Virus record (IMG/VR): IMGVR_UViG_3300050132_000504
Coordinates: 62,001-126,000 of that record
Length of the DNA stretch: 64,000 nucleotides
From: a virus
Reading direction: 5' to 3' (one strand)
Made by a program: the position numbers and the translations under genes. Positions 45,243 through 56,657 of this stretch are shown piece after piece; position 1 is the first letter of the stretch, and each line of letters begins with the position of its first letter. The notes beneath the pieces are model-generated. The model was not told the DNA's origin. It did not search any database and saw only the letters and a program-made list of their open reading frames with translations.

Positions 45243-45373
45243 GGGGCGATGGTGAAACTGGTAGACACACCGGACCGATAATCCGGCGCAACAGTGCTCA
45301 ACCCTGCAGGATAAGCGCAGCCGGGCTGCATGACCGGCGTTGCATGGAGGTTCAAGTCCTCCTTGCCCCACCA
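45243..45373 (+). tRNA. Leu-shaped class II tRNA with giant variable arm, anticodon reads GAT
   Basis: Acceptor GGGGCGA/TTGCCCC, discriminator A and encoded CCA (45371-45373). D-arm GTG-AAACTGGTAGA-CAC is typical of tRNA-Leu. Anticodon stem CCGGA/TCCGG encloses CCGATAA, which places GAT (Ile codons) at 34-36 with C instead of U at 33. A two-base slip would give Leu TAA. The 59-base variable region folds as GCAAC/GTTGC enclosing GCCGG/CCGGC. T-arm GGAGG-TTCAAGT-CCTCC is perfect. Anticodon identity and function are uncertain. Confidence 0.7.
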
Positions 45374-51761: not shown

Positions 51762-52640
51762 TTAGCGAGAGAACAGACGATCCCAAAATCTTCTTGCGCC
51801 GGTCTTGGGAGTGTCTTCGCCCGTTTTGGTAGGCCCGGTCTTCCTGGACGCAGGTTCAGGGTCGTCAGCATACCTCTTCGCATTGAACTTCAGCGGTACA
51901 TGTTTCCACAAGCCCACAGGATCGGGCTGTTCCGGCCACCTGGATCCCTCAAGAGCGGCCTGAGGATTGATGAGACACAGTCGCCGCGCCGTCTCCTCGC
52001 CTGCTCGCTGAGCCACATACTCAAAGCCCTTTTTCAGATGCGGGGGCCTCCACGCAGGGTGGTGTGCGTCGGTGGCAATAAAATGGATCCAGTTACGCTC
52101 CAGCAGTTCATTTGAAAAGGCTTCCGCCATCTTGCCGAATCGCCCATATAAGGAGCTGGAGGTTACCTGAATCAAACACCCCTGACGCATGAAATCGGCA
52201 AGCAACTCAGGCTGGCGATGCAATGCCAGGTACCGCTCCGGATGGGTGATGATCAGGGTATAGCCTGCCAACTGCAACCTGAACATGGCGTCGGTTAATT
52301 GGGGAGGAATTGCCACGTTGGGAAACTCGATCAGCAAGTACCCTTTACCGTTGATCGAGTAGCGCAAAGGGTTAGCCACCGCTTCGAAAATGTTCTCCGC
52401 GGTCAGGTGAAAGTCGCACCCCAAACTCAATCCGACACTGTCCTTCAGCAACTCGCGCAACTCGGCCAAGCGCTCTTCGATGACCTGAGCCTGGTAAGGA
52501 TACCTGTCACTTGCGTGAGGGGTGCAAACGATGTGTGTCACGCCTTCGTCAGCGGCCTCACGTGCCATGGCTAGAGATGTTTCAAGGTCCGGCGACCCGT
52601 CGTCCACCCCGTAGATCAGGTGCTCATGAATGTCAATCAT
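51762..52640 (-). CDS. CpsB/YwqE-type PHP tyrosine phosphatase
   Basis: 292 residues on the minus strand, alone against the plus-strand arm. [13 protein letters not shown] (H5, H7), CTPHAS, a central GCDFHL, ITHPERY and IATDAHHP are the PHP metal-site motifs of CpsB/YwqE phosphotyrosine phosphatases. The C-terminal 60 residues are Pro/Lys/Thr-rich. Hosts use such enzymes to control capsule export, so a phage copy could reshape the cell surface. A cargo gene picked up from a bacterium is likely. Confidence 0.82.
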
Positions 52641-52893
52641 CGCGTTTCGCTTTCCAGTTCCTGCCACAAGAGCTTGAATGAGCTGCGAGAGTCTCAATCA
52701 TCGAGGCAAAGAGATTCCAACCATGCATACGATCCTAGCAGCACGTGATGCAATGGGACAGGTTTAGCATGGTTTCGAACCTAAGGGGATGGCGGTCTTC
52801 GATGTGGAGATGACCCAGCACTGCATCGCGTGCCACTTGAACAGGTAGCGGCCTGATGGCGTCAGTCACGTACTGATCCAACTGGAGAGAAAG

Positions 52894-53049
52894 ATGATTC
52901 AACCGATTGATTCAGCCGAGCACGCTCTGCATGAAGCAGATGCGCTGCCCAGCTTCTTTCATCCTGAGACACATCTGATCTTACGGGTGCTGATCTACTG
53001 CGCGTTCATGCTGGAGAAGATCTACGCCAAGGTGGAACCGCTGCGGTAG
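52894..53049 (+). CDS. Small hypothetical protein
   Basis: 51 residues from the ATG at 52894 behind GGAGAG. Helical, with a hydrophobic ILRVLIYCAFMLEKIYA segment. Preceded by 250 bases with nothing recognisable. Function unknown. Confidence 0.45.
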   Translation: MIQPIDSAEHALHEADALPSFFHPETHLILRVLIYCAFMLEKIYAKVEPLR

Positions 53050-53057
53050 CTTTGGTA
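53050..53057 (+). promoter_or_regulatory. CTTTGGTA motif
   Basis: Plus-strand CTTTGGTA directly after the stop of the gene at 52894 and 39 bases before the ATG at 53096. Same spacing class as other copies. Confidence 0.35.
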
Positions 53058-53095
53058 GCCGGCGAGACTCTGCTGTACTGAACACCGGAGAAATC

Positions 53096-53401
53096 ATGGG
53101 TAAACAAGTCGTATTCACAGACCTCGAATGGGAGTTCTTCCAGCAGCAGACCCATCAGGGTCTCCTCAATCTGGCCATGGACGCCTATGCCCCAGGATTG
53201 CCCACATCTGCGCTCCCTCCTTCGCGGGAGGAACTGGTGGAAGACAACCTGGCTGAAAACTGCTTGGCCCGGTTGGCAGCGGCAATCACAGTACCAGATC
53301 CAGGACCCCCGGTAGCATCTCCCGGCGCTCCGCAGGCAATGGGGCCTGAGGTGGTTGGCTATGTGGCGCCTCCGCCGGAGCCGCCTCCAACCTTTTACTA
53401 A
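53096..53401 (+). CDS. Hypothetical protein with Pro-rich tail
   Basis: 101 residues from the ATG at 53096. Helical first half (DLEWEFFQQQTHQGLLNLA), Pro/Glu/Ala-rich end. A small AGCGAT/ATCGCT hairpin follows the stop. Unknown function. Confidence 0.5.
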   Translation: MGKQVVFTDLEWEFFQQQTHQGLLNLAMDAYAPGLPTSALPPSREELVEDNLAENCLARLAAAITVPDPGPPVASPGAPQAMGPEVVGYVAPPPEPPPTFY

Positions 53402-53441
53402 GCGATTGAAATCGCTCAATTGGTTGGATTGGGAGAAGACG

Positions 53442-53654
53442 ATGGATTTCGACATTGAAGTTGCAGGTACTGGGTTTTACTCAATTCAAGGCCGAAGCGA
53501 AGAAGGGGCCGCCTGGGTTCGGAAGAATGTTCAAGATTCCGATCCTCAAGGTTTAGCCTATACCGACGATTCCCGACTCGCGTTGGAAATCGTGAAAGGC
53601 GTATCGAACGATGGCCTTTCTGTTTCGATCGACGGTCGCAAATACACGGAGTAA
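53442..53654 (+). CDS. Small hypothetical protein
   Basis: 70 residues from the ATG at 53442 behind GGGAG. Beta-alpha-beta look (FDIEVAGTGFYSIQGRSEE). No family recognised. Ends seven bases before the structured element. Confidence 0.5.
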   Translation: MDFDIEVAGTGFYSIQGRSEEGAAWVRKNVQDSDPQGLAYTDDSRLALEIVKGVSNDGLSVSIDGRKYTE

Positions 53655-53660
53655 TCGAGT

Positions 53661-53874
53661 TTGGGTGCGGATGGGTAGCGGGCGACGGGTTGATATTCCC
53701 GCCGGCGAAGTCAGGGCAGGAGCCGAAAGACGTTGACTGCAATGACTTCGTGGCTGACCAGTGCACGGGAAACCAAGAGTAGGCCAAACGCAAAGTAGAT
53801 TCAGTTCGAAACGCAAAGTAGCCCAGACGGAAGTACCTTCGACACACAGCGGACGAGGCTTTGGCTGCACCCAA
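53661..53874 (+). ncRNA. Structured RNA of unknown class (214 nt)
   Basis: No gene. The ends pair: TTGGGTGC (53661) with GCACCCAA (53867). Inside, CGAAGTCA (53706) pairs with TGACTTCG (53743), and CGGG/CCCG makes a further hairpin near 53685. AAACGCAAAGTAG is repeated near 53790 and 53811. Closed terminal pairing with internal helices resembles an RNA domain. It lies about 630 bases before the tmRNA. Confidence 0.45.
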
Positions 53875-53938
53875 TTAAGTGTTTTCACCTATTTTGCATT
53901 TTCCAAATTCATCGCATTCTCGGATCAAGGAGAAAAAC

Positions 53939-54511
53939 ATGATTTACGGTTGCAAATGGCCTAATGGCGACCTGTCGTTTGTGGTAGCGCCTGACAAAAT
54001 CACAGCAATCATAACTCTTGATGAAGAGGGTGGTGCGGGTGAAGAAGATCTATTTCAGATTCCAACCAATGTCGGTAACGGCATTGCAATCCATCTGAAA
54101 GCTGCTGATCCTTCAGTAACAGAAGGCGCGGCCTTCGTGTTGGAAGGCTTCAGCGAGGCACTGAGTGATATTCTCCGTGCTCAAGAGATTGTCACATACC
54201 GGGAGCCGGAGGAAAACGACATTCAATCGGAAGCTGTCTACCAACTTACCGTTCGTGACACCCTCGTTGACACCATCGCTGCAACCATTCTGTTCCGCGA
54301 TCCAGAAGAGCGACCCATCCTTGCATTCACCAAAGAAGCAACGGAGAAAGCTGAGGAAATATTCGCCCGGTACAAGGACGAATTTCACAGTTTCCATGTG
54401 GACTTTGTTGTTCCTTCAGAGGAAGCAGTTATTGCAGGTTCCTGGCCAGATGCCATCAAGCTGATCGAGGCCAAGGCGGAAGAACTGCTGACCTGCGATC
54501 TGGATGCGTAG
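53939..54511 (+). CDS. Hypothetical protein
   Basis: 190 residues from the ATG at 53939 behind AAGGAG. Acidic, alpha/beta (LSFVVAPDKITAIITLDEE, VRDTLVDTIAATILF). No domain recognised. Its stop codon lies inside the first helix of the tmRNA acceptor piece, so the two genes overlap by three bases. Confidence 0.55.
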   Translation: MIYGCKWPNGDLSFVVAPDKITAIITLDEEGGAGEEDLFQIPTNVGNGIAIHLKAADPSVTEGAAFVLEGFSEALSDILRAQEIVTYREPEENDIQSEAVYQLTVRDTLVDTIAATILFRDPEERPILAFTKEATEKAEEIFARYKDEFHSFHVDFVVPSEEAVIAGSWPDAIKLIEAKAEELLTCDLDA

Positions 54512-54960
54512 TTTCAAACAGATTGGGTACCGCATAGAGCTTCCCTGGCAACAGGGAGTGTAAAGCTTGTGAAACTACTGCAGTCGAAGACATTTTCGGA
54601 CCTCGGTTCAACTCCGAGCGGGTCCACCATAAGCCCCTGAGAGGGATCGTACAGCCGTTAATGTCGGCAGTCATCGGTCATCCGACCTCAGAGGCTTATG
54701 TTGGGCCCGTCACGGTTTCGACGGAAACAGTTGACGATGTGCAGACAAGCCGGATCGGTCGCCCACGTTACGGGAGGCCAGACGCATATATGCCAACACT
54801 GGGTATGTCGCCAGCATGACGTTTGAGGTCTTCGAACCGGCCACGGCCGCGGAGAACACCCTGGGCGTTCTTGCTGCTGTCTAGTCCGAAAGACTAGACG
54901 GGGCCAAGTCTGCTTGGCCTGGCAACAGAAGGGCGCCTTCGGGCGCCCAGCAGGCCGGAC
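54509..54960 (+). ncRNA. ssrA: Circularly permuted (two-piece) tmRNA
   Basis: The acceptor piece comes first: T-arm CTCGG-TTCAACT-CCGAG (54602-54618), then CGGGTCC and encoded ACCA (54626-54629). A 73-base insert (54630-54702) can fold back on itself (ATAAGCC/GGCTTAT). The coding piece then begins GGGCCCG (54703), pairing fully with CGGGTCC, followed by the tmRNA hallmark CACGGTTTCGACGG. Both pieces pair through UUGAC/GUCGA and UGCAG/CUGCA (P2). A tag frame ends at TAG 54882 (last residues VLAAV) inside the 8-bp hairpin GTCTAGTC/GACTAGAC. Two GC hairpins follow (54902-54948). tmRNA with SmpB rescues stalled ribosomes. The 5' and 3' ends and the tag start are estimates. Confidence 0.88.
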
Positions 54961-55010
54961 GCGAATTATACAGAAACATTATGTGTTCTATATCACAATC
55001 GATTCATAGA

Positions 55011-55025
55011 GGCTTTCCCCTATCC
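55011..55025 (+). promoter_or_regulatory. GGCTTTCC[CT]CTATCC motif, copy 1
   Basis: GGCTTTCCCCTATCC lies 50 bases before the response regulator start. A near-identical 15-mer at 55910 lies 47 bases before the next start. Common spacing suggests a promoter or regulator site. Confidence 0.45.
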
Positions 55026-55074
55026 TCAAAGTGGCCATCTTCCGGCCTGATATTAGCTGAGAGGAAAAAGGCCA

Positions 55075-55698
55075 ATGATTCGATGTGTAATGGCAGACGA
55101 CCATGTTCTGGTCCGTGAAATTCTGTGCAAGATCATGGAACAGACTTCCACGATCCGAATCATCGGGGATCATGGAGATGCGCGCGAAGCAGCAGAACAT
55201 GCTGTCGACCAGAAGGTCGATGTTCTCATCCTCGATGTGAATATCCCAGGCGCTGATCCATTTGAAGCGGCTCGATGGGCCAAGTCTTCTCACTTTCCGT
55301 TGAAAGTGATGTTCCTCACCGGATCGACTGAAGAAGAGCACATTCTCAATGCGATCGAAGCCGGCGCTTCCGCGTACATGACAAAGACGTGCGGTTTCGA
55401 TGAACTGCTACAAGCAATCACAAGGGTTCACCGCGGCGATTCCTATCTTCCCATCCTGCCCAAGTTCACGGGCCAAGGACACTCTGCCGGCTTCCATCGG
55501 CTGTCTCCTCGGCAGAATGAGGTTCTGAAGATGCTCGCCGAGGGAAACAGTGTCAAGGAAATCTCCATCCTCCTCGGTTTGAGTGCAAAGACCGTGGAGG
55601 TACACAAATCGACCATGATGGAGAAACTTGGGATCCACAATAAAGTTCAACTCGTCATGTACGCGGTACGCCACAAGCTGGTCGCCGTCAGTGTCTGA
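55075..55698 (+). CDS. NarL/FixJ-type response regulator
   Basis: 207 residues. Receiver domain with acidic pocket D8-D9, phospho-acceptor D54 (LILDVN), T82 and K104. The C-terminal LuxR-type HTH (about 142-205) reads LSPRQNEVLKMLAEGNSVKE and KTVEVHKSTMMEKLG. A cognate kinase is not present, so it probably plugs into host signalling. Such full-length regulators are unusual on phages and suggest host origin. Preceded by a GGCTTTCC motif. Confidence 0.9.
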   Translation: MIRCVMADDHVLVREILCKIMEQTSTIRIIGDHGDAREAAEHAVDQKVDVLILDVNIPGADPFEAARWAKSSHFPLKVMFLTGSTEEEHILNAIEAGASAYMTKTCGFDELLQAITRVHRGDSYLPILPKFTGQGHSAGFHRLSPRQNEVLKMLAEGNSVKEISILLGLSAKTVEVHKSTMMEKLGIHNKVQLVMYAVRHKLVAVSV

Positions 55699-55716
55699 CG
55701 AAAGCGCGAGGCAGCG

Positions 55717-55872
55717 ATGAAACTGAAGATTGAACAGCTCGACTCTTCTGTGAAGGGCCGGGTAATCAGGAAGACGTACAAGCGGCGCAATGCCAAGTTG
55801 AATCGACGCCTGGCAAAGGCCGATCCAGAGAATGCACCGACCAAGCCTCGATACCGAGGGTATGTGTCGTGA
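55717..55872 (+). CDS. Small basic protein
   Basis: 51 residues, very Lys/Arg-rich (GRVIRKTYKRRNAKLNRR). Follows the response regulator by 18 bases. Possibly a nucleic-acid-binding accessory. A strong hairpin follows its stop. Confidence 0.5.
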   Translation: MKLKIEQLDSSVKGRVIRKTYKRRNAKLNRRLAKADPENAPTKPRYRGYVS

Positions 55873-55877
55873 GCCAG

Positions 55878-55895
55878 GGGCGCCTTCGGGCGCCC
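55878..55895 (+). terminator. UUCG hairpin terminator
   Basis: GGGCGCCTTCGGGCGCCC forms a 7-bp stem with a stable UUCG loop, followed by TTCGTACGTTT. The identical 18-mer is part of the tmRNA region at 54931-54948. Confidence 0.65.
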
Positions 55896-55909
55896 TTCGT
55901 ACGTTTAGG

Positions 55910-55924
55910 GGCTTTCCTCTATCC
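55910..55924 (+). promoter_or_regulatory. GGCTTTCC[CT]CTATCC motif, copy 2
   Basis: GGCTTTCCTCTATCC differs from the 55011 copy at one base and lies 47 bases before the ATG at 55971, just after a terminator hairpin. A terminator followed by a promoter would be a typical unit boundary. Confidence 0.45.
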
Positions 55925-55970
55925 AATTCCAGCCAACAATTCCGTAGGATGCAGTTGTATCGGAGAAACG

Positions 55971-56585
55971 ATGAGACAGTTCAGCGAGGTCACCTTGAAG
56001 GTGACCGTTGAAAAGCCGTATGTGGGCGAAACCCGGCAGTTGCTGGTGCAAGCGGTCGATACGATCCACGAGAGCAACTACGTCTTCGAGCATCGGGTGA
56101 CGGACATAGATGTGCCGGCCCCGGCAAATGCGGACGAAGGGACTGAAGCTGAGGAGATCTCGGAAGAGCGGATCTATGTGATCGTTCCAGAAACCGTTCA
56201 GGTCACTCCGCCCGACAGTTCGCCGCGATCGATTTTCATGGGGCCCGGCCGGCTGATGGTGCAGTGCGCCCAAGTCGTATCGGCCATGCGCGGATGCGAG
56301 ATCATTAACAACGGCGATGAAGCCATTCTTGAGCCAATCACGACGATCGTGCTCAGCGTGCGAAACAGCCGGGAACTGAAGATGATTCGGGAAGCCCTCG
56401 TTCAGGATTCCTTGACGGGAACCGCCGGAATCGAAGGCAACTGCCGCTATCGCGTCCAGTCGTTCCAGGACAGCAATCCTCCGTTCTATGGAACGGAAGA
56501 GAGTGTCCTGACTGCCATTTGCACCACGCCTGTTTGCAAAGCCGATGTAGACGCCGTAATCGGCCACCTGGAGCTTTATGCCTGA
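55971..56585 (+). CDS. Hypothetical protein
   Basis: 204 residues from the ATG at 55971 behind GGAGAAA. Beta-rich N-terminus (FSEVTLKVTVEKPYVGE), central PDSSPRSIFMGPGRLMVQC, C-terminal TAICTTPVCKADVDAVIGH. No family recognised. First gene after the promoter-like motif. Confidence 0.55.
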   Translation: MRQFSEVTLKVTVEKPYVGETRQLLVQAVDTIHESNYVFEHRVTDIDVPAPANADEGTEAEEISEERIYVIVPETVQVTPPDSSPRSIFMGPGRLMVQCAQVVSAMRGCEIINNGDEAILEPITTIVLSVRNSRELKMIREALVQDSLTGTAGIEGNCRYRVQSFQDSNPPFYGTEESVLTAICTTPVCKADVDAVIGHLELYA

Positions 56586-56657
56586 CAAAGAACTGTAGAT
56601 CCCTGTGCCAGCACTTCATCAAACGGAACAATCTAGCCCTCGGTAAAGGAGAGCCAT

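Follow-up and report, generated by a model that had tools for sequence, protein, structure and literature searches.

A complete circularly permuted tmRNA gene, recovered by ARAGORN, Rfam and RNA folding, occupies positions 54537-54960 (+) of the window, the whole 64,000-nt stretch of DNA analysed here, which was taken from a virus record of 178,101 bp (its positions 62001-126000). With high probability, the best explanation overall is that this locus represents an intact permuted (two-piece) phage ssrA, which would be used in a host-dependent manner and belongs to a phage group in which the tRNA-like block appears to be exchanged. The record belongs to a tailed phage, as it encodes a portal, major head (capsid) protein, tail sheath, terminase, ribonucleotide reductase and integrase. 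The tyrosine integrase gene (G000:C1:1-1563, -; L002) is located at the left end of the record, the rest of which looks like a large myophage.

Architecture of the permuted tmRNA gene

The permuted tmRNA predicted by ARAGORN spans 54537-54975, and the Rfam model tmRNA_permuted (RF04321) is matched over its full length at 54565-54819 with 67.7 bits (gathering score, 47 bits). None of the cut-offs of the lineage models RF01849, RF01850 and RF01851 is reached; the best of them, beta_tmRNA (RF01850), matches over its full length with 44.8 bits, under its cut-off of 84, and scores 47.6 and 43.9 bits on the tmRNAs of two related phages described below. No related tmRNA DNA was detected by blastn among INPHARED phages. 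The gene and its surroundings contain the following features:

54537-54629 (+): 3' (acceptor) piece of the tmRNA, with leader hairpin, P2 3' strand, T-arm, CGGGTCC, A and CCA (ARAGORN, Rfam, two-piece fold)
54565-54570 (+): P2 distal strand GCTTGT, partner of ACAAGC at 54745-54750 (Rfam alignment, two-piece fold)
54602-54618 (+): T-arm, CTCGG-TTCAACT-CCGAG (sequence, Rfam)
54619-54629 (+): acceptor 3' strand CGGGTCC, discriminator A and encoded CCA, with a G3-U70 wobble against GGGCCCG (sequence)
54630-54702 (+): 73-nt intervening sequence with hairpin TAAGCC/GGCTTA, presumably absent from the mature RNA (sequence, fold)
54703-54960 (+): 5' (coding) piece of the tmRNA, its 3' end approximate, to 54975 in ARAGORN (ARAGORN, Rfam, RF01850)
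54703-54724 (+): acceptor 5' strand GGGCCCG and D-analogue with GTTTCGACGG (sequence, Rfam)
54745-54750 (+): P2 distal strand ACAAGC (Rfam, two-piece fold)
54792-54884 (+): tag reading frame ANTGYVASMTFEVFEPATAAENTLGVLAAV and TAG stop (ARAGORN; one residue changed in the sister phage)
54879-54899 (+): hairpin GTCTAGTC-CGAAA-GACTAGAC, containing the stop codon (P5-like; sequence, fold)
54902-54919 (+): hairpin GGCCAAG-TCTG-CTTGGCC (fold)
54931-54948 (+): hairpin GGGCGCC-TTCG-GGCGCCC, close to the 3' terminus of the coding piece (fold)
53875-54793 (+): segment unlike the sister phage, comprising ORF 53879-54511 and the tRNA-like, insert, P2 and pre-tag part (sister comparison)

The gene shares with the permuted tmRNAs described by RF04321, in addition to a score above the cut-off, the order of 3' piece, insert and 5' piece, the T-arm and encoded CCA, an acceptor with the G3-U70 pair, which is the alanine identity pair of tmRNA, the GTTTCGAC motif, P2, and a tag whose stop codon lies in a hairpin. 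It departs from the three lineage models both in score and in its tag of 30 aa ending in LAAV. The insert is exactly 73 nt long, with CCA ending at 54629 and GGGCCCG beginning at 54703. The initial annotation of this DNA, which had been made from the letters alone, had described a permuted tmRNA carried by a phage, with the 3' half placed before the 5' half, a 73-base self-folding insert between them, a perfect T-arm, CCA, and pairing of the halves at the acceptor (GGGCCCG with CGGGTCC) and at P2; the covariance-model and ARAGORN searches that it proposed, together with the phage genes on the record, bear out this description in every part.

The fold of the insert (54630-54702) has a free energy of -28.4 kcal/mol (z = -3.9), a stability attained by none of 200 shuffled sequences, and the precursor (54537-54950; z = -6.1) is more stable than all 100 of its shuffles. 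When folded as a dimer, the mature pieces form the acceptor helix, the T-arm and a long P2, and the two-piece fold of the trimmed domain has a moderate advantage over shuffles (z = -2.7).

The RF04321 score alone proves little, because one-piece genes of Acidobacteriota also score 54-72 bits: the model exceeded its cut-off in nine of 297 genomes of this phylum (L198-L206). We rejected these nine 'permuted' matches, since ARAGORN reports a one-piece tmRNA in eight of them and the ninth, L204, for which it makes no tmRNA call, has the same tRNA-Val/tRNA-Asp neighbourhood. Such a tRNA-Asp/tRNA-Val pair adjoins eight of the nine matches, L204 included, the exception being L200; RF04321 apparently takes the T-arm of the upstream tRNA for the tmRNA 3' half. 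No true permuted tmRNA gene was found among the 297 genomes. That a tRNA just upstream of an ordinary one-piece tmRNA likewise mimics a permuted gene in the window would be in line with these above-cut-off scores, mostly behind tRNA-Asp, but the probability of this reading is practically nil. ARAGORN finds no complete tRNA upstream of the window locus, P2 pairs across the insert, and the downstream acceptor half is missing, which already refutes it: no second T-arm with CCA follows the gene, the sole T-loop-like word downstream being GATTCGA at 55077, which belongs to the beginning of the next gene. A caution applies to the new Rfam permuted model, which can place one-piece tmRNAs, mostly those behind a tRNA, above its cut-off.

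Tag, predicted function and likely host

The tag consists of 30 residues (ANT...LAAV) and ends in LAAV rather than in LAA, the usual degron end of tmRNA tags, a difference that may alter proteolysis. It differs at one residue from the tag of the sister phage, and the distant relative has a related tag of 32 residues, ANTTGYLASKTAEVLAFPAPAAAFEAAYLAAA. The tag pattern matched only these two known relatives in IMG/VR; none of the other viral permuted tags compared has the LAAV end, and a few end in LAV or FAV.

The initial annotation had proposed a search for SmpB elsewhere in the genome, but no match to PF01668 was found in the 178-kb, possibly incomplete record. Phage trans-translation is thus not self-sufficient by gene content, and the tmRNA would depend on the SmpB of the host. 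Judging from the gene structure, host tRNA-processing enzymes would excise the 73-nt insert, yielding two RNAs held together by acceptor and P2 pairing; host AlaRS would then charge this two-piece RNA, host SmpB would deliver it to stalled ribosomes, and the ribosome would append the 30-residue tag. The phage would most likely benefit from the recycling of ribosomes in the course of infection, using a tag that differs from the host's. Alternatively, the tRNA-like domain might act as a decoy, binding host SmpB or AlaRS and inhibiting host trans-translation. The LAAV end, which makes a weaker degron possible, would fit this role, and so would the existence of TLD-only phage tmRNA, an RNA related to that of mycobacteriophage DS6A having been reported to inhibit trans-translation (PMC4131195, PMC11915505). 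Nevertheless, we consider a decoy unlikely, given that the full tag frame and stop hairpin, for which a decoy would have no need, are retained.

A CpsB/CapC-type phosphatase gene (51762-52697, -), probably host-derived cargo, belongs to a segment that the sister phage lacks. Among 84,980 species genomes, it matches only Acidobacteriota, namely, seven Acidobacteriaceae (65-70% identity) and two other members of the phylum (55% and 65%). This single accessory gene provides moderate evidence for an Acidobacteriaceae host. Several of the matched genomes bear isolate names of the fen, palsa or bog type, and the samples of these related host genomes point to soil or peat as the probable source of the phage. 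When 398 genomes of the putative host family were searched with the portal protein, a single marginal match and no confirming prophage emerged, and the DNA of the first 20 kb of the window yielded only short weak matches to this family.

Eight of the nine Acidobacteriota genomes matched by the phosphatase gene contain an above-cut-off tmRNA, in all eight cases one-piece, and tags in this group include ADYSLPLAA and ANDNLALAA. Thus, the comparison with host ssrA advised at the outset sets a two-piece phage gene against a one-piece form in the likely host group, and the expectation that the lineage of the gene could point to the host is not supported, with the beta model nearest, albeit below its cut-off, and the accessory gene pointing to Acidobacteriota. 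If the host assignment is right, the phage introduces a tmRNA that is foreign to its host in form and carries another tag. The integrase encoded on the record, and the common use of tmRNA genes as integration sites, could instead speak for a decayed or host-derived relic of integration at ssrA, functionless in the phage. However, nothing is missing from either piece, the insert or the tag frame, the tag half and its sister counterpart are 98% identical with the tag almost unchanged, and the integrase lies ~115 kb away. Furthermore, with one-piece tmRNA in the likely host group, the phage gene is no copy of that group's ssrA. Taken together, these observations make a relic very unlikely and favour an intact phage gene.

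Proposed exchange of the tRNA-like domain among related phages

A permuted tmRNA was found in 2 of the 20 related records searched, most of which are short fragments. The comparison set therefore has three members, the window phage, its sister (L138/G004; 97% portal identity to the window phage) and a distant relative (L150/G008; 62%), and the tmRNA architecture is the same in both related phages. The window and sister sequences are collinear, with ~97% identity over 53009-53874 and ~92% over 54693-56596. Within the gene, the tag half, from the resume codon onward, is 97.9% identical to that of the sister phage, the 5' piece before the tag 69.7% and the 3' piece 62.9%. The edge, at ~54793, is sharp, with matches at 42 of 70 alignment positions in the last bin before 54800 and at all 50 positions of the bin that follows. 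As to which phage was altered, the similarities to the distant relative point both ways: in the 3' piece, the sister phage is closer to it (70% versus 51% for the window), and in the pre-tag segment, the window is slightly closer (73% versus 65% for the sister).

Base pairing is kept within the divergent part. The T-stem pairs are changed on both sides (CTCGG/CCGAG in the window, GAGGG/CCCTC in the sister phage), P2 of the sister phage has different sequences with pairing retained, and the inserts differ in sequence with complementary ends kept in both. Furthermore, in both the window and the sister phage, a piece forms its best pairing with the partner from the same gene. In the simplest reading, the block replaced would consist of ORF 53879-54511 and the complete tRNA-like domain. 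This suggests that the domain was exchanged as one cassette, with the break inside the gene, just before the tag. Since the permuted gene keeps these parts contiguous in DNA, one intragenic breakpoint moves the whole domain with its helices unbroken. Among these related phages, the unit that appears to have been swapped en bloc comprises the T-arm, the acceptor, the insert and both strands of P2, whereas the tag half is conserved.

Since the two sister records come from metagenome assembly, in which reads of different phages could have been joined at the conserved GGGCCCGTCACGGTTTCGACGG stretch, an assembly chimera might account for the within-gene difference between the sister phages. We assign a small probability to this explanation. 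Collinear sister sequence flanks the segment to the left and to the right, and a chimera would therefore take two false joins; the right edge (~54793) lies outside the conserved GGGCCCGTCACGGTTTCGACGG stretch, and the best pairing of each piece with its own partner also argues against a chimera and in favour of a block exchange.

Three other genes of the window were also noted. The ORF at 53879-54511 (+; 210 aa), beside the swapped tmRNA half, has no counterpart in the sister phage, and searches of Pfam, PHROGs and IMG/VR found nothing related to it. Directly 3' of the tmRNA lies a gene for a LuxR-type response regulator (receiver and HTH; 55075-55698, +), the protein of which occurs within IMG/VR in the sister phage only. 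Farther upstream, a 128-nt tRNA-like gene (45243-45370, +), scoring 47.4 bits with the Rfam tRNA model and missed by ARAGORN, carries a ~55-nt insert in the variable region, has a predicted anticodon loop CCGATAA (GAT) and is 98% conserved in the sister phage.

Place among known phage tmRNAs

Permuted tmRNA in phages is an already known kind of gene, to which the window gene adds one more. Phage Melnitz carries a two-piece tmRNA, and a 2021 survey counted 53 predicted two-piece genes among 133 unique phage tmRNAs (PMC9004378); elsewhere, the sequences listed comprise 79 phage tmRNAs and, in total, 11,946 permuted tmRNAs (PMC11915505). Using one DNA pattern, we found more than 120 permuted tmRNA stretches in IMG/VR, nearly all with recognisable tags, mostly ending in ALAA. 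Of the initial suggestion that a phage copy would be notable, carriage by a phage stands and novelty does not, because such genes have been published (PMC9004378, PMC11915505) and are common in IMG/VR.

As in the OM43 phage Melnitz and in SAR11 and other marine phages, the permuted tmRNA of the window phage is complete, and its lineage is mismatched with that of the host (PMC9004378). However, the ssrA of Melnitz is of the alphaproteobacterial type and lies under a glutamine riboswitch (PMC9004378), whereas Rfam detects no riboswitch in the 64-kb window; moreover, the window phage probably derives from soil or peat, and its likely host group has a one-piece tmRNA. The permuted layout is also shared with the long-tag tmRNAs of IMG/VR, such as L092 (AKNTDSAKNAKVLAFPARPAVALQMAA), the best sequence match to the window tmRNA within the viral set, and L050, which have tags of ~27-31 aa, albeit different from that of the window.

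With our results, the carriers of permuted tmRNA come to include a phage group from soil whose hosts are probably Acidobacteriota. The results also suggest that phage and host can differ in tmRNA form, which would make this form a poor host marker. More tentatively, phages of bacteria with one-piece tmRNA might keep a foreign two-piece tmRNA in which the tRNA-like domain is an intact cassette set against a fixed, phage-specific tag half, and the single intragenic breakpoint that the permuted order allows could be one reason for mobile genomes to favour it. If cassette exchange holds in more genomes, it would provide a testable reason for the success of permuted genes in mobile DNA.
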